Of a stretch of 37,246 nucleotides of DNA, positions 301-37,064 are shown piece after piece. The position numbers and the translations under genes were made by a program. Each line of letters begins with the position of its first letter. Position 1 is the stretch's first letter. The notes under the pieces were generated by a model. The model was not told the DNA's origin. It saw only the letters and a list, made by a program, of their open reading frames with translations, and did not search any database. Source of the DNA: a virus; the IMG/VR virus record IMGVR_UViG_3300008221_000014, positions 1 through 37,246 of that record; one strand, 5' to 3'.

Positions 301-316
301 TGTGACGTAGTTCACA
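301..316. promoter_or_regulatory. CRP/GlxR-type palindrome, copy 1
   Basis: TGTGA-N6-TCACA, a perfect match to the consensus recognised by CRP-family regulators (GlxR and Crp in actinobacteria). Its first base lies 96 bp before the ATG at 397. A TTGACG hexamer starts 26 bp after the site's first base. The second copy at 582 has nearly the same geometry. Binding by a host regulator is an inference. Confidence 0.65.
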
Positions 317-326
317 TGGATACAGC

Positions 327-356
327 TTGACGGCAGGGAACCGGAGGGAGTAGTCT
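327..356 (+). promoter_or_regulatory. Candidate early promoter 1
   Basis: TTGACG (327-332) lies 10 bp after the CRP-type palindrome. It is followed at 18 bp by a weak TAGTCT (351-356), with another possible -10, TATCGT, at 356-361. The -35 match is good and the -10 is poor, as is common at activator-dependent promoters. It would drive the coiled-coil gene at 397. Confidence 0.4.
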
Positions 357-396
357 ATCGTCTAACAGCTAATATCAACCGACGAGAGGTAAGACG

Positions 397-576
397 ATGA
401 CCAACTCACATGAAGAAAATAAAGCTCTGCGAGCGGAAATTACTCGCCTGGAGAATGAGTGCGTCCGACTAACAGCCGAACTCATGGATTCTAAGAAGGA
501 TAAGGCTATGGCGAAGTCAGAGGTTAGCAACCTTCGACTAATCCTCGAGACTTTGAGAGATTCGGATTCCAACTAG
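397..576 (+). CDS. Small coiled-coil protein
   Basis: 59 residues, first gene of the plus-strand operon; not recognised as a known family. The start is the ATG at 397, preceded by GAGAGG at a good distance. The sequence is rich in Glu, Lys and Leu and carries leucines at heptad-like spacing (residues 11, 18, 25, 46, 53), so it is predicted to be almost entirely a coiled coil, possibly a dimerising regulator or adaptor. The N-terminus contains His-Glu-Glu-Asn, also present near the start of the next gene and encoded by the same 13-base string, which suggests that both starts derive from a duplicated leader. It is preceded by a CRP-type site and promoter-like hexamers. Function unknown. Confidence 0.7.
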   Translation: MTNSHEENKALRAEITRLENECVRLTAELMDSKKDKAMAKSEVSNLRLILETLRDSDSN

Positions 577-581
577 ACGAC

Positions 582-597
582 TGTGATGCACATCACA
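582..597. promoter_or_regulatory. CRP/GlxR-type palindrome, copy 2
   Basis: TGTGATGCACATCACA, a perfect TGTGA-N6-TCACA and nearly a full palindrome. It starts 97 bp before the ATG at 679, against 96 bp for copy 1. TGGACA follows 26 bp after the site's first base, the same offset as TTGACG after copy 1. It appears to be a duplicated promoter unit. Confidence 0.65.
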
Positions 598-607
598 CCA
601 ACACAAC

Positions 608-637
608 TGGACAATAGCAACCGATCCATAGTATCGT
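608..637 (+). promoter_or_regulatory. Candidate early promoter 2
   Basis: TGGACA (608-613), 18-bp spacer, TATCGT (632-637). Position relative to the CRP-type palindrome matches candidate promoter 1. Both hexamers deviate from consensus, consistent with dependence on an activator. It would drive the gene at 679. Confidence 0.4.
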
Positions 638-4625: not shown

Positions 4626-4973
4626 ATGTCAGATTCAGAGAGCAGGTACACCAGGGAACAACGAGTACGCAAGAGTGCAGTCAAGCCCTACAACAAGATC
4701 GAGTGGGAATCTGCCGGATGTTTAGGTATCGGGGAGACCGTGTTCTTCCTGGGACCAGGAGAATCCAAGACGTACAACCCAATGCTACGCAAGATCTGTG
4801 GGGAATGCCCGATCCTGGAGGACTGCCGCAACTGGGCACTAGCCCACGAGAAGTACGGCTTCCAGGGTGGCATGTCAGGGTACGAGCGCAAGGCTTATCG
4901 CATGGAACATGGTATCGAGTACGAAGATCCAAGTCTCGTTGCTTGGGCTGAGAATCTAGGACTAGGCTACTAA
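4626..4973 (+). CDS. whiB-like: WhiB-like transcription regulator
   Basis: 115 residues. Four cysteines are placed as in WhiB proteins: Cys32, then Cys58-x2-Cys61-x5-Cys67, which bind a [4Fe-4S] cluster. Downstream is Gly-Phe-Gln-Gly-Gly-Met-Ser, corresponding to the Gly-(Ile/Val)-Trp-Gly-Gly turn that contacts the primary sigma factor; here Trp is replaced by Gln. WhiB proteins are restricted to actinobacteria and their phages and act by binding region 4 of the host principal sigma factor. In mycobacteriophage TM4 such a protein represses host whiB2. It probably redirects host transcription early. The C-terminus has few basic residues, so DNA binding may be weak. Confidence 0.85.
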   Translation: MSDSESRYTREQRVRKSAVKPYNKIEWESAGCLGIGETVFFLGPGESKTYNPMLRKICGECPILEDCRNWALAHEKYGFQGGMSGYERKAYRMEHGIEYEDPSLVAWAENLGLGY

Positions 4974-5935: not shown

Positions 5936-6559
5936 TCAGTACATCTTACTAGGATGGGATCCACCAAGACGGTGGATGATTCGATTAACCGCACGGACCT
6001 CTGCTCGATTGACACCAGCCTCGTCCTTCTTGAGCAGCACAGCAGCCTCAGCGATCGAGTGGTTGAGACGGTACAGTGTAGATAGTGTGGACTGATCGAT
6101 AACACTTAGGCTGTAGAACGCTCCGCGTACATCAACGATAAGGGCGAGACGATCCCCACCTTCATTCGCTAGTCCCTTAGCCCGGATCTCACCGTCACTG
6201 GCATTGAACGATGTCCAGTCATCGGCATCCCATATGGATGGGAGGATGGAACGGACTAGCGGCTGAGAGTAGTAGTACTGATCTTCCTCAGCAGGTCCGA
6301 TAGTCCTTGCACGTTCCTTGCGAATCATATCAACGCAGTAGTTGTGACATGAGGCACTAACTTTGTTCAGTCCCTTAGCACCCTCCTCGCGCCAACCTAT
6401 AACCTCATCGGGGTGTGTCGACACCCACATGTAAGCCTCCCCAATGAGATCGTCGAGCTCCAGGATCCCCTTGTTGGAGTCGAACGCACGACGTGCACCT
6501 GCTCTAGCCTTCGCCAACTCTGCGGGCAGTACCTCGTTAGACCGTTCATAGTTTGCCAT
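5936..6559 (-). CDS. Sigma-factor-like protein
   Basis: 207 residues. Residues about 30-85 resemble sigma-70 region 2 (Leu-Asp-Asp-Leu-Ile-Gly-Glu-Ala, then Trp, and an Asp-Met-Ile-Arg-Lys-Glu-Arg-Ala-Arg helix). Residues about 150-200 look like a region-4 helix-turn-helix (Ser-Thr-Leu-Ser-Thr-Leu-Tyr...Ser-Ile-Ala-Glu-Ala-Ala...Val-Asn-Arg). It would direct RNA polymerase to phage promoters, or act as an HTH regulator. It is the last gene of the leftward middle operon, two bases after a shorter gene carrying a related region-2-like domain. The family call is by pattern, so a more distant HTH protein remains possible. Confidence 0.6.
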   Translation of the reverse strand: MANYERSNEVLPAELAKARAGARRAFDSNKGILELDDLIGEAYMWVSTHPDEVIGWREEGAKGLNKVSASCHNYCVDMIRKERARTIGPAEEDQYYYSQPLVRSILPSIWDADDWTSFNASDGEIRAKGLANEGGDRLALIVDVRGAFYSLSVIDQSTLSTLYRLNHSIAEAAVLLKKDEAGVNRAEVRAVNRIIHRLGGSHPSKMY

Positions 6560-6561
6560 TG

Positions 6562-6816
6562 CTATACTCCGAACTGTGCTATGTAGAGTTTGTGTGCTAC
6601 GGATTCACTAAGACGCAGTGCGTACAAGGCAAAGTGGTACACACCATCGAACAGTTTCTGTGAGTCCTCACCCTGCTCTGCAATCCAGGCATCCACCTTG
6701 CGAGGGTGATGCACTATCCACTCCTCACACTTACCAACGAGCACCTCGACATCGAACATATCGGCAGGGTACTTGGACAACGCAGCTTCTGCTGCACCCC
6801 TTGCAACACTTACCAT
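6562..6816 (-). CDS. Region-2-only paralogue of the sigma-like protein
   Basis: 84 residues. Residues about 20-60 align with the sigma-like neighbour: Leu-(Val/Ile)-Gly, x4, Trp-(Ile/Val), x2, His-Pro-x2-(Lys/Glu)-Val, x2, Trp, with an Ala-Arg-x-(Gly/Ala)-Ala pattern upstream. The region-4 HTH is missing. It is therefore a likely duplicate reduced to the core-binding-like domain and might compete with, or modulate, its neighbour. It overlaps the phosphoesterase by seven bases and ends two bases before the sigma-like start. The homology is read by eye. Confidence 0.6.
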   Translation of the reverse strand: MVSVARGAAEAALSKYPADMFDVEVLVGKCEEWIVHHPRKVDAWIAEQGEDSQKLFDGVYHFALYALRLSESVAHKLYIAQFGV

Positions 6817-7550
6817 GAGTAGAGATCACCTTCCACTACGAACGAACGGTTAACGATGGGCACTGCTACTGGGTATACGTTGTCGCCATCAACATACAGG
6901 ATGGAGAATCCCTGTTGCCAGTTGAATGTCTTCGCGTATGAAACCTTCAGCGGATCCATCAGGTTGCCAGCTTCGAGACCGTACATGGTGTTCATGTGAC
7001 CACCGTAGATACCGGTCGTGTAAGGGACCAGACCGAGACGGTGAGTGTGACCACACACCACGTTCATACCGGTCTTCTTGCTCAGTCCACTAGCAGTAGA
7101 CCCTGCGTTCTGCGATGTGCCAGACTCGTCACCATGTAGAGCCAACCAGTTAGGTGCAACCTCGAAGCCCTTAGGGTGGTGAGTAATGCCGAGTTCATCT
7201 AGGCCCCAGAAGTTCTCCAACTCTAACTCAGGTAGCCCGAGTAGCCCCGGCATACGACGTGAGATCTGTTGGAACAATCTGTCCGTATGGTTGGACCGGA
7301 TGGTGTGCTCGATCTGCAGGTCACGGAACACTTGACGAGTAGCGTCACGATCATCACCAATGGAACGCTCGAACTCAAGCTCGGTTCCTTGCGCCCACTT
7401 CGATATGGTCTGGAAGTCTTGCTCGTCACCGACTGTTACGACGGTATCGTCCTCAGTCTTGATGTCTGCTATCATTTGAGCGACACCAGCGACAGCGGCT
7501 TCATCATGGTAGGGTACTTGCAGATCTGATATCATAAATATACGGTGCAT
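6810..7550 (-). CDS. Metallophosphoesterase
   Basis: 246 residues. Motifs of the calcineurin-like phosphoesterase fold appear in order: Ser-Asp9-Leu-Gln near the start, Gly-Asp42-Glu-Gln-Asp45, Ser-Asn87-His88, His139-Gly-Asp, and Gly-His168-Thr-His170. These hold a two-metal centre that hydrolyses phosphoesters. The first motif is Asp-x-Gln rather than the usual Asp-x-His. Substrate unknown; in phages such enzymes may act on nucleic acid ends or cyclic nucleotides. The start directly follows the TAG of the Cys-rich gene and has AGAAGG upstream. Confidence 0.85.
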   Translation of the reverse strand: MHRIFMISDLQVPYHDEAAVAGVAQMIADIKTEDDTVVTVGDEQDFQTISKWAQGTELEFERSIGDDRDATRQVFRDLQIEHTIRSNHTDRLFQQISRRMPGLLGLPELELENFWGLDELGITHHPKGFEVAPNWLALHGDESGTSQNAGSTASGLSKKTGMNVVCGHTHRLGLVPYTTGIYGGHMNTMYGLEAGNLMDPLKVSYAKTFNWQQGFSILYVDGDNVYPVAVPIVNRSFVVEGDLYSW

Positions 7551-7697
7551 CTAATTACCTTCTTCCATTCTCGAGTGATCGCAATGACATATATATTCTT
7601 TACCTGCTGAAGTATCGGTCAGCACGGGCTTGCAGTTATAACAGGAGCCGAATGCGCAGTATCCACATACCCTGATCCCGTCCATCTCAAGCGGCAT
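7551..7697 (-). CDS. 48-residue Cys-rich zinc-binding protein
   Basis: ATG at 7697 inside the end of the DUF1599 gene (11-base overlap) and TAG immediately before the phosphoesterase ATG. It has Cys-x2-Cys (11, 14), Cys-x2-Cys (19, 22) and Cys-His-Cys (37-39) plus His41, enough ligands for one or two zinc ions. Not recognised. The perfect fit between flanking genes supports it. It could be a partner of the phosphoesterase. Confidence 0.6.
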   Translation of the reverse strand: MPLEMDGIRVCGYCAFGSCYNCKPVLTDTSAGKEYICHCDHSRMEEGN

Positions 7698-8364
7698 AAC
7701 TCTTCGGCCATACCCCACGACGTACCATCAATGCGATGACCGCGTAGTTCGCTATGTCGAGTAGGCTATCTTCGACCGACTCGTGGTTGGGCTCTGATCC
7801 ATCGGAGTTGTAGGTGAGGTTCTTCAACCGCTCCATCTTGTCCGACATGCGAACCAGGATCCCGTTCATTGCACCACCGGGTGCGTTGTTAATGTTATCG
7901 GGACCGTAGTCTACCTGCTTGCTGCAGAGCACGTCACACAGATCGTCGAAGATAACCTCTGCGTCGTCCTCGAACTTAGCCAAACTGTTCTTGACCTTAC
8001 GGTCCGCTGACTCTTCGCGCTCACTCTTATGTTGATTCTCTAACGAGGGGGCCGAACTCGGATCCCACCACGAACCAAGAACTTCACTACGTGCGGCAGC
8101 AATATCCCCAACCGCTTTGGATGGGCGGTAGTCCACCTGGTTGTCTCCTCTTACTTCACTGTACAGGAGCCTGCTTGCTTCGAGTGCCCGCTTATTGTAC
8201 TCAGCATCCGTGAGAGTACGTGGATGCGCCGGCTTCTCGTGACCAAGCTTTGGTTGATCCTCTGAGTCCATCACGTAACCAGGTAGGTTGGCGTAGTCTC
8301 TGTAGATACTGTTACTGTACACGATGGTCCCTACTTTCCTTGAATCTTTCGATGACTTCGACAT
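7687..8364 (-). CDS. DUF1599 (Nmad1-like) protein
   Basis: Up to 225 residues. The C-terminal 95 residues match the DUF1599 pattern: Lys-Gln-Val-Asp-Tyr-Gly, then Ile-Leu-Val-Arg-Met-Ser-Asp-Lys-Met-Glu-Arg-Leu, Glu-Ser-Val-Glu-Asp-Ser-Leu-Leu-Asp-Ile-Ala-Asn-Tyr-Ala. This all-helical domain, also called nucleotide modification associated domain 1, is related to MazG-like nucleotide pyrophosphatases and occurs in many phages. The N-terminal half is polar and probably disordered. The start is uncertain: ATG at 8364 overlaps the upstream gene by 53 bases, whereas GTG at 8322 has AGGGA upstream and overlaps by 11. Confidence 0.75.
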   Translation of the reverse strand: MSKSSKDSRKVGTIVYSNSIYRDYANLPGYVMDSEDQPKLGHEKPAHPRTLTDAEYNKRALEASRLLYSEVRGDNQVDYRPSKAVGDIAAARSEVLGSWWDPSSAPSLENQHKSEREESADRKVKNSLAKFEDDAEVIFDDLCDVLCSKQVDYGPDNINNAPGGAMNGILVRMSDKMERLKNLTYNSDGSEPNHESVEDSLLDIANYAVIALMVRRGVWPKSYAA

Positions 8365-8485
8365 ATTCTATTTGCTGATTCTCTTTCAGTTCTTTGTAAG
8401 CAAGAACCCCGACTGTCAGTTTGTATCCACCGACAATTATACCAAACACCATGATACCTACGAACAATATGATTAAGGTGCTCAT
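8312..8485 (-). CDS. 57-residue membrane microprotein
   Basis: Starts in an ATGA overlap with the upstream microprotein. Residues 3-20 are a clean membrane helix (Leu, Ile, Val, Phe, Gly); the remainder is charged and helical, with a Glu/Lys/Arg-rich tail. Its 3' end overlaps the 5' end of the DUF1599 gene. Together with the neighbour it forms a tandem pair of small single-helix proteins between primase and DUF1599. Function unknown; membrane anchoring of replication proteins or a holin-like role are guesses. Confidence 0.55.
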   Translation of the reverse strand: MSTLIILFVGIMVFGIIVGGYKLTVGVLAYKELKENQQIEYVEVIERFKESRDHRVQ

Positions 8486-8661
8486 AGTGGATCGTGTCCT
8501 CGTACGGTGTTGCGGTACTCTTTCATTGCCTCGAGTGTGCGGACACTACGTCGTGTCACGTACTCGTTGAAGTTTCTTATCGCGTAAGGTACGAGCACTC
8601 CGACACCAACCACACTAAGTGCTACTGCCAGGAATATCATACCGCCATACTCTTCACTCAT
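8482..8661 (-). CDS. 59-residue membrane microprotein
   Basis: ATG at 8661 overlaps the primase stop (TGATG) and its own stop overlaps the next start (ATGA). Residues 9-28 are hydrophobic (Ile-Phe-Leu-Ala-Val-Ala-Leu-Ser-Val-Val...), forming one membrane helix; the C-terminal half is basic and probably cytoplasmic. A longer in-frame reading upstream would run into the primase gene and was not used. Unrecognised. Confidence 0.6.
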   Translation of the reverse strand: MSEEYGGMIFLAVALSVVGVGVLVPYAIRNFNEYVTRRSVRTLEAMKEYRNTVRGHDPL

Positions 8662-9281
8662 CACAGCCCCAATCTCTTCTTGATTCCATCGGATCCTTCT
8701 TCCATGTACACGTCCGTTAGGTCCATACCATCGGGCATAGATACAACAACGGCCACGTCCAGAGCAGTAGCGATCTTCTTTCCGAGATCCCATCCTGCTT
8801 GATCTCCGTCGGTCAAGACGAACACCTTGTGATAGTCAGTGAATGCCCTGCGGTAGAACGGCTTCCATGCATTAGCACCAGCCAATCCTACTGTCGGGAT
8901 TCCACACACCGAGTTGGCGATTACGGTATCGAACTCACCCTCGGATATAGCAATGAAGTCTGAGTCGGTCTGGAATGCACCGACGTTGTACAGATGGGAG
9001 TCAGCACCATCGCGTGAAAGATACTTAGGTTCAGATGAGTCGACTAACGTGCGGAACCTGATCTCATTGACACAGGTGGGGGTGATGTAAGGGATAGAGA
9101 TCCTACCCCGGTACCGCTCGTGACCAATACGAGGGACACCAACGTAACCTATCTTATGTGCAGTGGCAGCTTCCCTAGTAATACCTCGAGCCATTAGGTA
9201 CTGTGCTAACTCGGGTGTCATCTGCGAAGCGTAATCATCGGCAGATAACCCTAGTTCGATCTTTGCATCAAGACTAATCAT
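8661..9281 (-). CDS. DNA primase, toprim subunit
   Basis: 206 residues. The toprim fold is shown by Ser-Glu114-Gly-Glu116-Phe-Asp and Thr-Asp158-Gly-Asp160-Gln-Ala-Gly, the acidic residues that bind magnesium in DnaG-type primases. A Tyr-Arg-Gly-Arg-Ile-Ser-Ile-Pro-Tyr motif upstream is typical of the N-terminal part of the primase catalytic core. The zinc-binding part is on the separate upstream gene, coupled by ATGA. Together they would make RNA primers for phage DNA replication. There is no helicase domain in this chain. Two-gene primases occur in actinophages. Confidence 0.85.
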   Translation of the reverse strand: MISLDAKIELGLSADDYASQMTPELAQYLMARGITREAATAHKIGYVGVPRIGHERYRGRISIPYITPTCVNEIRFRTLVDSSEPKYLSRDGADSHLYNVGAFQTDSDFIAISEGEFDTVIANSVCGIPTVGLAGANAWKPFYRRAFTDYHKVFVLTDGDQAGWDLGKKIATALDVAVVVSMPDGMDLTDVYMEEGSDGIKKRLGL

Positions 9282-9673
9282 CTCTTGCTCCTCCGTTCGC
9301 GAGGCTCTTGTCCTCGTTGGCTAGGCGGTACGTATCCACGCTTGCTCTTGCTCGAAGTCTTGCGACCTCCACGCTTCATGGCTTGCCCACTGTCAGCAGC
9401 ACCAGTGATCTGTTCACACTTAGCGACAGCGTCCTTGTACTCTAGTCCTTCGTAGTGTTGGACAACACCGATGGCGTCGTTCTTGAAGCCACACCCCTGG
9501 CAGAACACCTGACCTATGTCACTGGAGATCCTGCATGAAGCATGGCTGTCAGCATGCGCACCACACTTGATGGTCTGCCATACGCCACGAGGTGAGGGGA
9601 GGTCCCACTCGAAGTACTCGAGTACAGGCCAGATGTCGAACCTGAAGTCCGAGTCGGAACTCCCCCTACTCAT
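9278..9673 (-). CDS. DNA primase, zinc-binding subunit
   Basis: 131 residues. Cys37-x2-His40 and Cys58-x2-Cys61 form a CHC2-type zinc ribbon, preceded by a Trp-Gln-Thr-Ile-Lys-Cys strand as in primase N-termini and followed by helices. This domain recognises the template start site. The C-terminal 35 residues are basic (Arg, Lys, Ser, Gly) and probably bind nucleic acid. ATG at 9673, separated by one base from the preceding stop; its own stop overlaps the toprim gene by ATGA. Confidence 0.8.
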   Translation of the reverse strand: MSRGSSDSDFRFDIWPVLEYFEWDLPSPRGVWQTIKCGAHADSHASCRISSDIGQVFCQGCGFKNDAIGVVQHYEGLEYKDAVAKCEQITGAADSGQAMKRGGRKTSSKSKRGYVPPSQRGQEPRERRSKR

Positions 9674-9674
9674 A

Positions 9675-10247
9675 CTATTTACCTACCGTACCACAGCAGC
9701 AAGAGTTAACGCTGTACACGTACACTGCGATGACGGGAGCCTTACCTTTAGAAGCTTTAGAGGGCACCTTAGAGGGCTTCGCGGGCTTCTTGTGTGCCGG
9801 TGGTACTACCTTCTTAGATGGCTTAGCAGGCTTGCTAACCTTGCTAGGCTTACTAGGCTTAGGTGCTGACGGACGTGCCTCTTCGATCGGCTCTGCGGTA
9901 GGTGGAGTAACCACTACTGGTGGAGCGACGAACGGTGGGGTCACGATCACGGGTGGAACTACAACGGGTGGAACTGTAACTACCGGTGGAACAACTACGG
10001 GAGGAACAACGACAGGTGGGACTACCGGAGGGGGAGTCACTTTGTCGATGTGCTTATTGCCATCCTTGTTGTTCTGAGTGTTATGCTTGTCACCCTCGGA
10101 GTTGTTCTGCTGATTGTGATTCCCTGCCGCAGCTGCGGGATCGTACTTGCTAACGGCTCCCATCAGAAGGGCAGCCGTCGCTACGATTACCACAACCATG
10201 ATAACATATCCGGGTCTGGTGTTGAGTGACGCAAAGGTACTTCTCAT
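9675..10247 (-). CDS. Membrane-anchored Pro/Val-repeat and Lys-rich protein
   Basis: 190 residues. I chose the ATG at 10247 because GAAAGGA lies 6-8 bases upstream and a strong promoter precedes it. Residues 14-31 are a membrane anchor or uncleaved signal. Then come an Asn/Gln/His/Lys-rich spacer, about 65 residues of Pro-Pro-Val-Val-type repeats, a Lys-Pro-Ser-Lys-rich basic segment of about 50 residues, and a short end containing Cys-Cys-Cys. The layout suggests a surface protein whose rigid Pro region crosses the wall. It interrupts the replication operon and has its own promoter, like an accessory gene. Function unknown; exclusion or surface modification are possible. Confidence 0.7.
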   Translation of the reverse strand: MRSTFASLNTRPGYVIMVVVIVATAALLMGAVSKYDPAAAAGNHNQQNNSEGDKHNTQNNKDGNKHIDKVTPPPVVPPVVVPPVVVPPVVTVPPVVVPPVIVTPPFVAPPVVVTPPTAEPIEEARPSAPKPSKPSKVSKPAKPSKKVVPPAHKKPAKPSKVPSKASKGKAPVIAVYVYSVNSCCCGTVGK

Positions 10248-10282
10248 ATATATTCCTTTCAGTAGGTGTTTCATTAGGGTCT

Positions 10283-10311
10283 ACCATAGCTGGGTAAGTT
10301 TGTCTTGTCAA
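10283..10311 (-). promoter_or_regulatory. Sigma-70-type promoter for the Pro-rich gene
   Basis: On the minus strand TTGACA (plus positions 10306-10311), exactly 17 bp, then TATGGT (10283-10288). Perfect -35, four of six at -10. It lies in a 74-base gap, about 35 bp upstream of the ATG at 10247. Confidence 0.65.
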
Positions 10312-10321
10312 GTCCGACACG

Positions 10322-10660
10322 CTATAGGACCTCAGGCTTACGGTTGACCTCTAGTCTTTCGCGCTCATCAAGCACGTTAACTACGTCCGGGTTGCCGGTC
10401 AGTACCATGTCGTGCTCATTGTAATGGTGTGAGCAGAACAGTAGCGTCGTGCTGTTACTGAAGGTAACCTCGATCCATGCCTGGACACCGCAACGATCGC
10501 AACGATCAAGAGCGTTGAGTTTGTATGGCTCCTTCTCTGTGGCTACAAGTAGACCGGAACCTGACTCGGAAAACTTGACCACTACGTTACTGGTCTCGGT
10601 ATCATCTTCCATCCAGTCATCAAAATCCTCTGCGTACTCTTCATACTCATCCTCGTTCAT
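10322..10660 (-). CDS. DUF7455-like CxxC/CxHH protein
   Basis: 112 residues. An acidic N-terminal half (Asp/Glu/Tyr) is followed by Leu-x-Arg-Cys-Asp-Arg-Cys-Gly-x-Gln-Ala and Leu-Phe-Cys-Ser-His-His-Tyr, then a helix with Asp-Glu-Arg-x-Arg-Leu. The C-terminal half matches a small metal-binding domain that is widespread in actinobacteria (DUF7455) and is supporting evidence for the host. Its role is unknown. The start overlaps the resolvase stop (ATGA). The acidic N-terminal addition is unlike the short host proteins I know of. Confidence 0.7.
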   Translation of the reverse strand: MNEDEYEEYAEDFDDWMEDDTETSNVVVKFSESGSGLLVATEKEPYKLNALDRCDRCGVQAWIEVTFSNSTTLLFCSHHYNEHDMVLTGNPDVVNVLDERERLEVNRKPEVL

Positions 10661-11022
10661 GCGATCCCCTCTCCATGCAGTAGGTCCTTGAATGTTTCCA
10701 GAGTCATTGTAACACGACCGGTACTGGTTCCCTTACCCCGCCCCTTAACCATGACAACACCATAAGTAGTGCCGCCGTACTTCTCCTCATAGTTGTCAGC
10801 CTCAACCTCAGCCTGACGAAGGAAGTCTAGCATGTTCTCACGAGCAACGTTCTTCGCTTCAACCACAACAACAGCTCTGGACTTCAACGTGATGCTAACG
10901 TCACCGATATCCTTAGCACCTGCGCGTGGTAGACGACGAGCGTGAAGACCGCTGTCGTTACAGTACGACTCGATGTCGGATTCCCATTTGCTTCCCTTGG
11001 CCTTGTTGTAAGCGTTACCCAT
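10657..11022 (-). CDS. Hjc-like PD-(D/E)xK resolvase/endonuclease
   Basis: 121 residues from the ATG at 11022, which overlaps the ATPase stop as TAATG; a longer reading frame upstream was rejected. Motifs: Lys-Gly-x-Lys-Trp-Glu14 in helix 1, Arg-Arg-Leu-Pro-Arg-Ala-Gly, Asp38-Ile-Gly-Asp41, and Glu55-Ala-Lys57. This order is that of archaeal Hjc-type Holliday junction resolvases and related phage nucleases; Glu14, Asp41, Glu55 and Lys57 would bind metal and cut. It probably resolves recombination or replication junctions before packaging. Confidence 0.75.
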   Translation of the reverse strand: MGNAYNKAKGSKWESDIESYCNDSGLHARRLPRAGAKDIGDVSITLKSRAVVVVEAKNVARENMLDFLRQAEVEADNYEEKYGGTTYGVVMVKGRGKGTSTGRVTMTLETFKDLLHGEGIA

Positions 11023-11798
11023 TACATGTCCTCCAACAACATAGATGCACCATCGAACTTCATCCACACAGCGGTGCTGCCGGATGCGTCCGCTTGACCG
11101 TACCTGTTCTTGACGGGAGCAACAGCCATCCATCCTGGAGTATCGGATGCAACGGTTAGTACTAGGCTAGGAACCTGAGCGACCTTACCGTGCAATGCAC
11201 TACGAGGAGGGCACGGGTTGCTGCCGTATGACTCACTGGTGTGGTGAAGGATAAGGAACGTAGCGTTAGTCTCACGTGCCCACGACTTGCACTCTCGCAT
11301 CAACGACCGGAGTGAACCGAACTCGTCACCGTCATCGTGCGTAACATCGGTAGCGTTATCAACCACAATGAGTACAGGGTCGGAACCTTTCATCTCACGG
11401 TAGATCTCTATCTCATCCTCGACATCGTACAGTGACGGGTTGGAGTCGAAGCTCCAGGAGATGTGACCTGCATACTGAGCCAATAGATCCGATGCCCACT
11501 TCTGGTCGAGTGCCATACGTTCTTCGACCTCGCGTTGTGGTAGACCTGTAATCATAGCGAGTGATCTAATAGCCATAGTGGAAGCGTGACTATCCATGCT
11601 GAAGTATAGTGTTGGTTGCTGTGACTTAAGAGCGACAGCAAGAGCGATCGTTGACTTACCTGCACCAGGACTACCCGCAACCATGGAGATCTCTCCACGT
11701 CGGAGGCTTATACCCTTAGCCGTCCACGACTGGAACGGTATGTCTAGTGAAGCACCAGACTTATCTATCGATCGAACTGTACGAGTTAGAGTTTGCAT
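11022..11798 (-). CDS. RecA/DnaB-family ATPase
   Basis: 258 residues. Walker A is Gly42-Ser-Pro-Gly-Ala-Gly-Lys48-Ser-Thr; Walker B is Leu-Ile-Val-Val-Asp147-Asn. A Leu-Ile-Leu-His-His-Thr segment fits the sensor strand after it. Length and layout match the compact RecA-like proteins of actinophages, annotated variously as DnaB-like helicase or recombinase. It lies between a zinc protein and the resolvase, so recombination or replication is the expected role. ATG at 11798 follows AAGGATGGTAG. It lacks an obvious DnaB N-terminal domain. Confidence 0.8.
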   Translation of the reverse strand: MQTLTRTVRSIDKSGASLDIPFQSWTAKGISLRRGEISMVAGSPGAGKSTIALAVALKSQQPTLYFSMDSHASTMAIRSLAMITGLPQREVEERMALDQKWASDLLAQYAGHISWSFDSNPSLYDVEDEIEIYREMKGSDPVLIVVDNATDVTHDDGDEFGSLRSLMRECKSWARETNATFLILHHTSESYGSNPCPPRSALHGKVAQVPSLVLTVASDTPGWMAVAPVKNRYGQADASGSTAVWMKFDGASMLLEDM

Positions 11799-11833
11799 CT
11801 ACCATCCTTCCTAGTGTAGTGGTGGCGGTAGCC

Positions 11834-11857
11834 GTGTCCCCGGAGAAGTGAGGACAC
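11834..11857. other. Hairpin in the 73-base gap before the ATPase gene
   Basis: GTGTCC (11834-11839) pairs with GGACAC (11852-11857), extendable by flanking GGT/ACC. Transcripts of the leftward operon would not meet it before the ATPase gene; it lies between the ATPase start and the zinc-protein stop, with no T-run. Possibly an RNA-stability or processing element. Confidence 0.35.
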
Positions 11858-11871
11858 GACCACCATGTTAC

Positions 11872-12354
11872 TTAACCTGGGAACGAAGCAAACTCAGGTG
11901 ACTTCGAGTCAATGAACTGAGCCTTGCACTGATCAGGTGTACCCTTGGGTGTTGGGCACATGTATGCCTTCCACGGTCCACGAGCACTCACACCACTACG
12001 AGCCGTCATCGGTCCGTGTGCACAGTTCTTCGCCGCTGCTGCTGCGAACGCTGCCGGTGGTGCTGCTACTGGTGCTGCTGCTGGTGCTCCCCAAGTCGAT
12101 GCTGCGATAGGAGCTTCCGCTACTGGAGCCACTCCCGCTGCTGCTGCCGGTTGTACTGGTGCTAGAGCGAACGTGTCAGCGACTGCACTTGATCCACTGA
12201 GTTGCTGTTCGATCTCTGCGATGACCGCAATGCGATCTTGAATGATAGCAAGAGCGTAATCAAACGCTGCTTCATCCTTGCCGTACACGTTAATCAAGGT
12301 ACCTTTAGGTGTCTTGAAGTTTGCTTGAACTACTGTATCTGGTGCTGCACTCAT
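11872..12354 (-). CDS. Zinc-finger protein with Ala/Pro linker
   Basis: 160 residues. The N-terminal 55 residues look like a small alpha/beta domain. Residues 60-108 are a low-complexity Ala/Pro/Val linker. The C-terminal domain has Cys111-x-His113, Cys133 and Cys143 around a Trp-Lys-Ala-Tyr-Met-Cys-Pro...Gly-Thr-Pro-Asp-Gln-Cys motif, a zinc-binding tail found in actinophage proteins next to Cas4/RecB-like nucleases and RecA-like ATPases. A single-strand DNA binding role is plausible from context but not shown. It starts in a TAATG overlap with the nuclease gene. Confidence 0.65.
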   Translation of the reverse strand: MSAAPDTVVQANFKTPKGTLINVYGKDEAAFDYALAIIQDRIAVIAEIEQQLSGSSAVADTFALAPVQPAAAAGVAPVAEAPIAASTWGAPAAAPVAAPPAAFAAAAAKNCAHGPMTARSGVSARGPWKAYMCPTPKGTPDQCKAQFIDSKSPEFASFPG

Positions 12355-13034
12355 TAATTTACCTCCGCTAGTAATAGATCTTCATCGAACTTAGGACGAA
12401 CAATAGCAGGGTTCTGTGTGTAGCAGTGTTGCGACACGCCACAGAATCCACAGTTGAATCCAACCGAAGGTGTAAACACCTCGGACTTTATTAACTTGTA
12501 CGTGTCACGGAACCAACGACTCACCATCTCCGGTGGGTATTGATCCAGGTCGAACGGGTCGCTCATCTGTCCACCTCGAGCATTCCAGTACGCACCATAC
12601 TTGATGTCAACACCGAACTTCTCCTTGATGGCTAAACGATAAACCGCTAGTTGCAGTCCATCCTTGGATGCAGTGGCACCTGTCTTGATGTCAACGATGA
12701 TTAGTTCACCGGTAACTTTGTCACGGAACACCCTATCAACGAAACCTTTCAACGGGGTATCCAGTGGCAACATTACTTCGAGGCCCAGCTCGATGGCTGG
12801 ACGACCGTCAGGGTCAATCCAGATCTCTAGGTTAGGGTTAGCCATGCGCCATTCATAATAGTTCTTGGTGTACTTCTGACCGTTCTTGCGCCAGAACTTG
12901 TCATCCTCTTTGTTGGGGTTAGCCTTAGAGACTCTGCCTCCAGCCTTCCACTCAACGTCCTTGCCTTCTTCCATCTCGTTCTCGAAGTAAGTACTGAACT
13001 CCGCGAGACCTAGGGCTAGAGCCTTTTCACTCAT
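12354..13034 (-). CDS. Cas4/RecB-like nuclease, catalytic C-terminal part
   Basis: 226 residues. It has Gly-Phe-Val-Asp100-Arg-Val, Asp115-Ile-Lys117-Thr-Gly (PD-(D/E)xK motifs II and III), Gln128-x3-Tyr132, and Cys195-x2-Cys198-x5-Cys204. This is the C-terminal two thirds of a Cas4/AddB-type nuclease. The motif I histidine and the first iron-sulfur cysteine are absent from this chain and are found in the separate upstream ORF, joined by ATGA. It would process DNA ends for recombination. Either the enzyme is a two-chain protein, or a frameshift in the read sequence has divided one gene. Confidence 0.8.
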   Translation of the reverse strand: MSEKALALGLAEFSTYFENEMEEGKDVEWKAGGRVSKANPNKEDDKFWRKNGQKYTKNYYEWRMANPNLEIWIDPDGRPAIELGLEVMLPLDTPLKGFVDRVFRDKVTGELIIVDIKTGATASKDGLQLAVYRLAIKEKFGVDIKYGAYWNARGGQMSDPFDLDQYPPEMVSRWFRDTYKLIKSEVFTPSVGFNCGFCGVSQHCYTQNPAIVRPKFDEDLLLAEVN

Positions 13035-34789: not shown

Positions 34790-36670
34790 TTAATATCCAA
34801 TGACAGGGAATCTGCCGTTCGCTTCGATCTCGTTTAGGTTGATAGTACTTTGATTCTGCCTATCCCAAGGGGTCAGGAAGGCGTTCTTAGCATGAGACTT
34901 ACCAAAGCTACTACGTGCAGTAACCCTATCCCTACATCCCAACTCAGCGAACCATAGGGCCATGACAATATCTGTCTTCTGACCCTTAGGTGCATGAGGG
35001 GACCACGAAACCAACTGCTCGATCAAAGCCTTGGAAGACTCAGACTGGGCAGTGGAAGGAAGCTCAATCATCTGGTGACCATCATCATACCCAGAGAACA
35101 ACGTAGCCATAGAAGCGACACCGAAGTCGGCATCCTGCTTATTACGTCCAGTGTAGTGGGGCTTGATTAGGGTACCTCTAGCAGAACAATACTCATTCAG
35201 TTCACGATCGTGGGCAAGGAAGCCCTGGAAACCGTTAACCTCGATACGCCACTCAGCGACACCATACCTGTCAGTCCAGTTCTTAATGACATCCCTGATC
35301 TCCTCAGGAGAAGTCCTGGCCTTATTGTACATGTCTAGGACGTAACGCTTATTAGTGTTCGGATCTAAGCCAATCACTACCGCCGCAGTGTGACCCGTAG
35401 TGGCAGGGTCAAGTCCAGCGATAATAATAAGACCATCCATGCCATTAGGACGGCAGTTAGCCATACCCTTCGGGATAGCTCCCGTAAGCCGGTTACCATT
35501 GATACTAGCACGGAGTGCCTCCATCGTGAAGATAGACTCATCAGAAACTGACTGCTGCTGGTAAACCATGCTCCATACGCGAGGAGTCATGCGCTTACGC
35601 TTCTTACTTAAGCGAGGACCGTTCCACTTAATGAACTCACCGAGATCATCGGCTTCAGCATCAAGGTCCTTAGCGCCAATCTCAGGCACGTTAGTCTTAG
35701 GCCACAATGTGACCCACTTGTTAGGGTCATCGTCTGCGTCCAGAACCGCTGGCATAGCCAGGTAGGTCCAGGGTGATTCCTCATCAGGATACCTTGAAGG
35801 ATCTGTGAGTTCACTATATAGGTCTTTAGATTGCAACCGCGTACCCACAACGAGCAGGGCACCAGAAGCCGAGATACGTGAGACCACCTCCGATTGGATC
35901 CAGTCGATTTGCTTATCGAAGTCGTGAGCGTTCAACGAGTCAATAGCATCATCGAGAATAATAAGATCTGCACGTGCACCGTAAATCTGTCCACGGATAC
36001 CAAGAGCTTGGACCGTGGGGTCCTTCTCGCCACTATCACGGATAGATCCAGACACATAAATCATGTCCTGGTTCCAGGCTTCCGAGTCCTTGTCGTAGCC
36101 ACCAACTGGGCCATACTGACGAATCATGTCAGCATAGCGGGGGTGGGTAAGACGGGTCTTGATAGCGAAAAGCATCTTCTTAGCCATACCCTGAGTCTTA
36201 GAGACTAGCAGGATCCTGATATTTGGGTTCATGGCAATACGATAAGTCACATAGTTAATCGTGATAGAAGTCGTTTTACCATGCTCAGGTGGCATGTTAG
36301 CAATGATTAAATCTGGCTCGCCCTTAGAATATGTCATGGAAGGATGCAGCCAATTAGGTTCATTACCCTCGATCATGTCAACAACATTGGTCATGTGAGG
36401 GAATACCTTAGCCCCTAAATACTTCTCAGAGAACTCAGGGAAAGGGATAAACTCACCCTTACCATCCTTCGACATGGTCTTCATGTTCTTGATCCGTGCG
36501 ACCTCAGCAACGAACTCTGGGTCTTCCCTGCGCCACCTCTCGTAGGTGGTTATGTTCCTATCAACTGCTCTGACGGCTGCTCTAATTGTGAGGCCCTGCT
36601 GCAACTGTTCAAGGAACAAAATCTTGGCCTCCTCGACCGTCCCACTCTTCCTACCACCGGCTGTAGCCAT
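34790..36670 (-). CDS. terL: Terminase large subunit with N-terminal HTH
   Basis: 626 residues from ATG at 36670 (GGAG upstream; a TTG five codons earlier is possible). Residues 10-60 look like a small-terminase helix-turn-helix: Gln-Gly-Leu-Thr-Ile-Arg-Ala-Ala-Val...Ile-Thr-Thr-Tyr-Glu-Arg-Trp-Arg-Arg-Glu-Asp-Pro-Glu-Phe. Then Walker A Pro-Pro-Glu-His-Gly-Lys-Thr (127-133), Walker B Leu-Ile-Ile-Leu-Asp-Asp (ending about 241), and a nuclease domain with Gly-Leu-Asp-Pro-Ala and Lys-Thr-Asp-Ile-Val-Met-Ala. It packages DNA and cuts it. No separate small subunit gene is seen, so the HTH part may replace it. Confidence 0.9.
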   Translation of the reverse strand: MATAGGRKSGTVEEAKILFLEQLQQGLTIRAAVRAVDRNITTYERWRREDPEFVAEVARIKNMKTMSKDGKGEFIPFPEFSEKYLGAKVFPHMTNVVDMIEGNEPNWLHPSMTYSKGEPDLIIANMPPEHGKTTSITINYVTYRIAMNPNIRILLVSKTQGMAKKMLFAIKTRLTHPRYADMIRQYGPVGGYDKDSEAWNQDMIYVSGSIRDSGEKDPTVQALGIRGQIYGARADLIILDDAIDSLNAHDFDKQIDWIQSEVVSRISASGALLVVGTRLQSKDLYSELTDPSRYPDEESPWTYLAMPAVLDADDDPNKWVTLWPKTNVPEIGAKDLDAEADDLGEFIKWNGPRLSKKRKRMTPRVWSMVYQQQSVSDESIFTMEALRASINGNRLTGAIPKGMANCRPNGMDGLIIIAGLDPATTGHTAAVVIGLDPNTNKRYVLDMYNKARTSPEEIRDVIKNWTDRYGVAEWRIEVNGFQGFLAHDRELNEYCSARGTLIKPHYTGRNKQDADFGVASMATLFSGYDDGHQMIELPSTAQSESSKALIEQLVSWSPHAPKGQKTDIVMALWFAELGCRDRVTARSSFGKSHAKNAFLTPWDRQNQSTINLNEIEANGRFPVIGY

Positions 36671-36810
36671 AGTATCTGACTCCAATCAGTAGGGGGGTGA
36701 TAAGGGTGTTTCGGGAGGGGGGTGCTTTTTAAGTAAAAAATATTTTGGAAAGTTAGGCATTGGTCACGATTGTTCGGTTCCCGCGACCTAGAAAGTAAGG
36801 GTAAGGTAAG

Positions 36811-37035: not shown

Positions 37036-37064
37036 TTATCCACAGATATTACAGGTTATCCACA
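37036..37064 (+). promoter_or_regulatory. Two perfect DnaA boxes
   Basis: TTATCCACA at 37036-37044 and 37056-37064, same strand, 20 bp apart. Both match the bacterial DnaA box consensus exactly. With an AT-rich tract about 300 bp to the left, this is a candidate replication origin that uses host DnaA. Confidence 0.6.

Follow-up and report, generated by a model that had tools for sequence, protein, structure and literature searches.

The question raised by this locus is whether two perfect palindromes ahead of the first early genes of a virus connect its early transcription to a regulator of the host. The window, that is, the whole 37,246-base stretch of DNA analysed here, contained exactly two perfect TGTGA-N6-TCACA sites, at 301-316 and 582-597. 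The distance from the first base of the site to the start codon was 96 bp for one early gene (ATG 397) and 97 bp for the other (ATG 679), and each -35-like hexamer began 26 bp past the first base of its own site. These positions and distances had been given in the initial annotation, and all of them were confirmed. Its chance expectation of 0.04 was recomputed as 0.069 perfect sites in the window by a dinucleotide Markov estimate, so the figure changed while the rarity stood. When up to two mismatches were allowed, matches to TGTGA-N6-TCACA were not in excess across the window (15, versus 21.3 in shuffles). Operator 1 carried a central TA, as in GlxR sites. Features of the window are collected in Table 1.

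Table 1. Coordinates of candidate operators, promoter elements and genes in the window.
Feature	Position	Strand	Remarks
CRP/GlxR-type operator 1 (candidate), TGTGACGTAGTTCACA	301..316	+	perfect match
-35-like hexamer TTGACG, early promoter 1	327..332	+	offset 26 (N10) from operator 1
-10-like hexamer TAGTCT, early promoter 1	351..356	+	18-nt spacer; from sequence
First early ORF, 59 aa	397..576	+	weak match, unknown PHROG phrog_20039; RBS-like ACGAGAGG at 382
CRP/GlxR-type operator 2 (candidate), TGTGATGCACATCACA	582..597	+	perfect match
-35-like hexamer TGGACA, early promoter 2	608..613	+	offset 26 (N10); sequence and promoter scan
-10-like hexamer TATCGT, early promoter 2	632..637	+	18-nt spacer; promoter scan
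Second early ORF, 199 aa	679..1278	+	HEEN N-terminus and leader paralogous to first ORF; RBS-like ACGAGAGG at 664
WhiB-like regulator	4626..4973	+	PF02467, E=2.2e-10; phrog_472
Terminase large subunit (TerL)	34790..36685	-	query for finding relatives; divergent from early genes across joined ends

The early genes run rightward from 397, and all genes from about 5.9 kb to 36.7 kb run leftward. A related contig, L004, runs across both ends of the window; these are therefore joined, and a single intergenic region separates TerL from the divergently oriented early genes. Within this region, two perfect DnaA-box-like TTATCCACA sequences were seen 20 bp apart (37036-37064, at 37036 and 37056), a possible replication origin. 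The window also encodes a portal protein, a major head protein (by profile), a weak sigma-K-like protein and a metallophosphoesterase, and it is apparently a podovirus-like actinophage. Its TerL was 45-46% identical to those of Streptomyces Beephvirinae over 95-97% of the length. Since the terminase was closest to that group and a WhiB gene was present, the host is likely an actinobacterium, in agreement with the initial annotation, which had spoken of a lytic actinophage. The lytic part we infer only from kinship with the virulent phage Abafar and from the lack of an integrase among the window ORFs scanned. The second early ORF had no match in Pfam or PHROG, searches for relatives with the second early protein and with the WhiB protein found none, and a nucleotide search of phage records with the first 8 kb of the window gave no match.

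The Streptomyces podoviruses Manuel, Immanuel3, WRightOn, FlowerPower and Abafar are examples of the Beephvirinae. They resemble the window in having homologous TerL, major head, sigma-K-like and metallophosphoesterase proteins, and paired CRP-type sites upstream of TerL. Between the window (5936-13034) and Beephvirinae such as WRightOn (28752-36218 in L038), however, the genes for replication (primase, RusA, DnaB and exonuclease) were reversed in order and direction with respect to the early genes, as if the block had been inverted. The window (1-37246) contained no tRNA genes, compared with about 20 in most annotated Beephvirinae examined. With homologous terminase and head genes, but with neither the same gene order nor the tRNA array, the window is, as judged from its genes, a distant relative of the Beephvirinae, and we did not file it as a member.

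The leaders of the two early genes in the window are duplicated copies, with ACGAGAGG(T/C)AAGAC(G/A)ATG and the HEEN N-terminus common to both ORFs. Because the leaders are paralogous, the two sites cannot be counted as separate events, and the "matching geometry" to which attention had first been drawn is in part a product of the duplication. The arms agreed at 10/10 bases between the two sites, whereas identity over the rest of the promoters, with the -35 set aside, was only 38%.

Conservation in related phages had been set beforehand as a check, with its lack in close relatives as the refuting outcome, and the result was divided: sites were found in four contigs of the clade (L009-L012), in L018, in ct2KA10 and in the Beephvirinae, but not in L004, the closest relative covering the region (TerL 83%). 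The homologous first early promoter of L004 consisted of TTGACA, 18 nt and TTGAAT, followed by AACGAGAGG ahead of the ATG, and the box was absent. Where the box would stand, L004 had the AT-rich sequence GGGAATTAAAGAAAGTTTGGAAATATCCC, which may be an UP element. In each of L009-L012 (TerL about 76%), a single perfect site lay about 0.8-1.3 kb away from TerL, and in L010-L012 this site matched site 301 at 15/16 bases; a -35 at offset 26 from the site was looked for in L009-L012 and was absent. L018 had one site in the TerL-early intergenic region, and ct2KA10 had two, 77 bp apart, upstream of the first early gene.

All eight Beephvirinae genomes examined (8/8) had a pair of sites, 46-57 bp apart and with 0-1 mismatch per site, in which the arms were kept and the N6 was variable. 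In the seven linear records, the sites were located some 30 bp into the direct terminal repeat. The second site preceded TATAAT, TATAGT or TATACT on the TerL side by 56-58 bp, with varying sequence between, and this distance we take to equal that of lac-type class I promoters. The Beephvirinae sites thus face a TerL-side TATATATATAAT element without a good -35, whereas the window sites face the early genes. By chance, about 0.07-0.08 perfect sites would be expected per genome, and roughly 0.002 per kb intergenic region. As far as sequence comparison can tell, the sites are a recurring feature of the TerL-early region in this clade, with orientation and exact promoter varying by subgroup. Stretches of the cultured actinophages TM4, TinyTimothy and Fryberger that were searched contained no perfect site.

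Two further observations were made on these and other contigs. Early leaders of Beephvirinae contained TTGAGAACTCAA-like motifs (L038 at 43840 and 44464, L039 at 44922 and 45325, L046 at 43983 and 44389, L047 at 45056, and L051 at 45189), which presumably resemble the antitermination leader of actinobacterial rRNA operons. In L080 (a 57.6-kb contig, GC 0.66), L101, L093 and L078, 10-13 perfect TGTGA-N6-TCACA sites lay within 5-10 kb, far above chance; megablast of L080 against phage records gave no match, and blastn of another contig, L317, against phage records yielded nothing useful.

The architecture was defined as a class: box, N10, TTGACA-like hexamer, N17-18, TANNNT and, at about 80-116 bp from the box, a start codon. 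In IMG/VR, whose contigs are redundant fragments that may contain host or provirus pieces and for which our scan counts are lower bounds, paired boxes 30-60 bp apart were found in at least 120 stretches, versus 23 for the control palindrome ACACT-N6-AGTGT, and box-N10/11-TTGACA-N17/18-TANNNT at no fewer than 120 loci, versus 28 when a control palindrome of the same composition was joined to the same promoter. Among the matches listed, N10 outnumbered N11 by 59:4 in 63 non-redundant promoters, the start codon with a ribosome site was mostly 83-116 bp from the box (96-97 in the window), and a WhiB-like ORF, as counted with a crude regular expression, accompanied 32/119 box loci and 0/28 controls. 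Phages of the class ranged from 38 to 66% GC.

In the paired-site set, TTGAC occurred at offsets 26 and 37 with raw counts of 16 and 22, which fell to 3 and 6, against about 1 per offset, when redundancy was collapsed. Because this enrichment was modest, we used a scan with an open spacer of 1-31, so that the spacing was not chosen beforehand and the other spacings served as the internal control. Of the 61 non-redundant promoters among the matches listed, 19 had a spacer of exactly N10, as in the window (binomial P about 4e-14 if all spacings were equally likely), and 12 fell in a second mode at N20-22, a helical turn beyond N10. In about 30 phage promoters, a further palindrome resembling GACACGGCGTGTC (or GCGACACGCCG) stood between the -35 and the CRP-type box; this was seen in many promoters of the N20-22 or offset-37 type, e.g. 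L052, L065, L066, L120, L124, L168, L388 and L413.

A matrix was built from 24 non-redundant promoters of other phages, with the arms and -35 positions left out. Among all window positions, site 301 fell within the top 0.03% by this matrix, and site 582 within the top 0.34%. The logo had C and G adjoining the arms, a C immediately before the -35 and, 4-7 bp ahead of the -35, an AT-rich stretch; an A at position 8 makes it asymmetric. Both window sites carry its G (position 6), its A (position 8) and the C before the -35. Site 301 agrees with the class definition in every element, with TTGACG as -35, and site 582 is a looser fit, with TGGACA and TATCGT. The identity of the site, its preferred spacing and its recurrence in related and unrelated phages are established by these comparisons.

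In 257 Gb of cellular genome contigs, the architecture gave 36 scattered matches, and no host taxon emerged from them. It was present in 1/296 genomes of the class around an actinomycete MAG, a class that is probably not the hosts', so that this count is weak evidence. The architecture is frequent in viral contigs and nearly missing from cellular genomes.

What protein might bind the box? GlxR, a CRP homologue, has the consensus TGTGA-N6-TCACA, and directly activates ldhA in Corynebacterium glutamicum; bringing the ldhA site to consensus raised ldhA expression (PMC7999487). As in the window, such GlxR operators are upstream of a sigma-A-type promoter, with activation reported (PMC7999487), but they serve host genes, whereas the window sites belong to a phage and are candidate operators by sequence alone. 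The window sites are identical to the GlxR consensus and are compatible with the Streptomyces Crp motif GTG(N)6GNCAC (PMC10033298). The phage logo agrees with the latter, since the base ahead of the right arm is G in 44% and the base that follows the left arm is C in 62%, and the phage sites differ from Streptomyces Crp sites in being near-perfect palindromes at a fixed spacing. No CRP homologue was found with a CRP query in the window, its relatives or the promoter-class loci searched, while the query found host CRPs as the positive control. A phage-encoded CRP was rejected for these sequences, and annotated phages seldom carry a CRP homologue. PF13545 was present in 59/60 genomes of one class, and weak matches in two genomes of ~1 Mb looked DtxR/IdeR-like, not CRP. 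A host protein is the simplest candidate for the binder of the box. We found no report of CRP sites in actinophages in the literature searched.

We consider it somewhat probable that these loci form a phage promoter class built on a host CRP/GlxR-type operator, with class-I-like activation. The two palindromes would be operators for a host-encoded CRP/GlxR-family regulator, placed at a fixed N10 before the -35 of two sigma-A-type early promoters born by duplication. The regulator, presumably when bound to cAMP, would bind with its centre about 54 bp upstream of the start and help RNA polymerase at the TTGACR-N18 promoter in a class-I-like manner, and early transcription would rise when host CRP is active, perhaps as a form of nutrient sensing, as the initial annotation had suggested. 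The preferred spacings are one helical turn apart and upstream of the -35, which suggests a DNA-bound protein in contact with RNA polymerase. Several results count against this explanation. With a centre near -54, the sites are not in phase with the class I positions of E. coli, e.g. -61.5, the -35 elements are already good, and a simple CRP dimer site does not require the asymmetric A at position 8. In addition, L004 lacks the box, the L009-L012 site lacks a -35 at offset 26, the stretches searched in TM4, TinyTimothy and Fryberger lack a perfect site, and cellular genomes hardly contain the architecture.

Repression and a different binding protein are real rivals. It is unlikely, though worth serious attention, that the box is the operator of another regulator, either phage-encoded or a non-CRP protein of the host (e.g. 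GntR, WhiB-associated or another HTH protein). This would agree with the rarity of the architecture in cells and its frequency in viral contigs, with the asymmetric logo and its AT-rich stretch, with the co-occurrence of WhiB genes, and with a GntR-like reading frame, read from sequence without a profile, that adjoins the L018 site. However, WhiB accompanied only about a quarter of the loci, and phages of 38-66% GC matched the exact CRP/GlxR consensus.

Rather unlikely is a host CRP that binds the box as a repressor or dual regulator, by which the early genes would be held down in starved cells and released in well-fed ones. The good -35 elements leave no obvious need for an activator, and in coliphage T1, where host CRP regulates phage genes, cAMP-CRP represses the pir, dam and recE promoters (PMC6737242). 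The T1 case differs from the window in that repression occurs in a prophage-like state in E. coli, the host belongs to another phylum, and no fixed N10 architecture was reported (PMC6737242). Against repression here, the sites are upstream of the -35 rather than over it, and the spacings N10 and N20-22 differ by about one helical turn, suggesting contact with RNA polymerase.

That a single random palindrome was copied with the leader is very improbable: the paralogous leaders, the expectation of 0.07 for one perfect site and the missing site of L004 would fit, but arms kept above background, recurrence in relatives, the spacing preference across unrelated phages and the matrix match largely refute chance plus duplication as the full explanation. 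Hardly more credible is that the sites, near the genome ends, serve replication or packaging instead of transcription, to which the terminal-repeat position in Beephvirinae and the nearby DnaA boxes could point, since constant distances to -10 and -35 elements tie the sites to promoters and the second copy in the window is between two genes.

The proposal of CRP/GlxR-type operators linked to early promoters was thus partly supported and is broader than stated: consensus fit, strong-promoter-like elements, recurrence and spacing favor it, while the absence of the box from L004 does not. With the activator explanation in mind, we tentatively extend it, as something quite possible but short of probable: many phages, many of them on Actinobacteria, may have wired early promoters to host cAMP-CRP via a box-N10-(-35) module of rigid spacing and helical phase, so that the onset of infection would depend on the metabolic state of the host, in a geometry that host genes hardly use. 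Control of phage genes by host CRP is known in E. coli, and little is established about the start of actinophage transcription. With a promoter class that is defined by sequence and occurs in many uncultured phages and, as a variant, in cultured Streptomyces phages, it can be tested directly whether phages sense the metabolism of their host. If CRP does bind the box, the motif could serve to annotate the early regions of uncultured phages, and cAMP physiology would be linked to the outcome of infection in actinobacteria.
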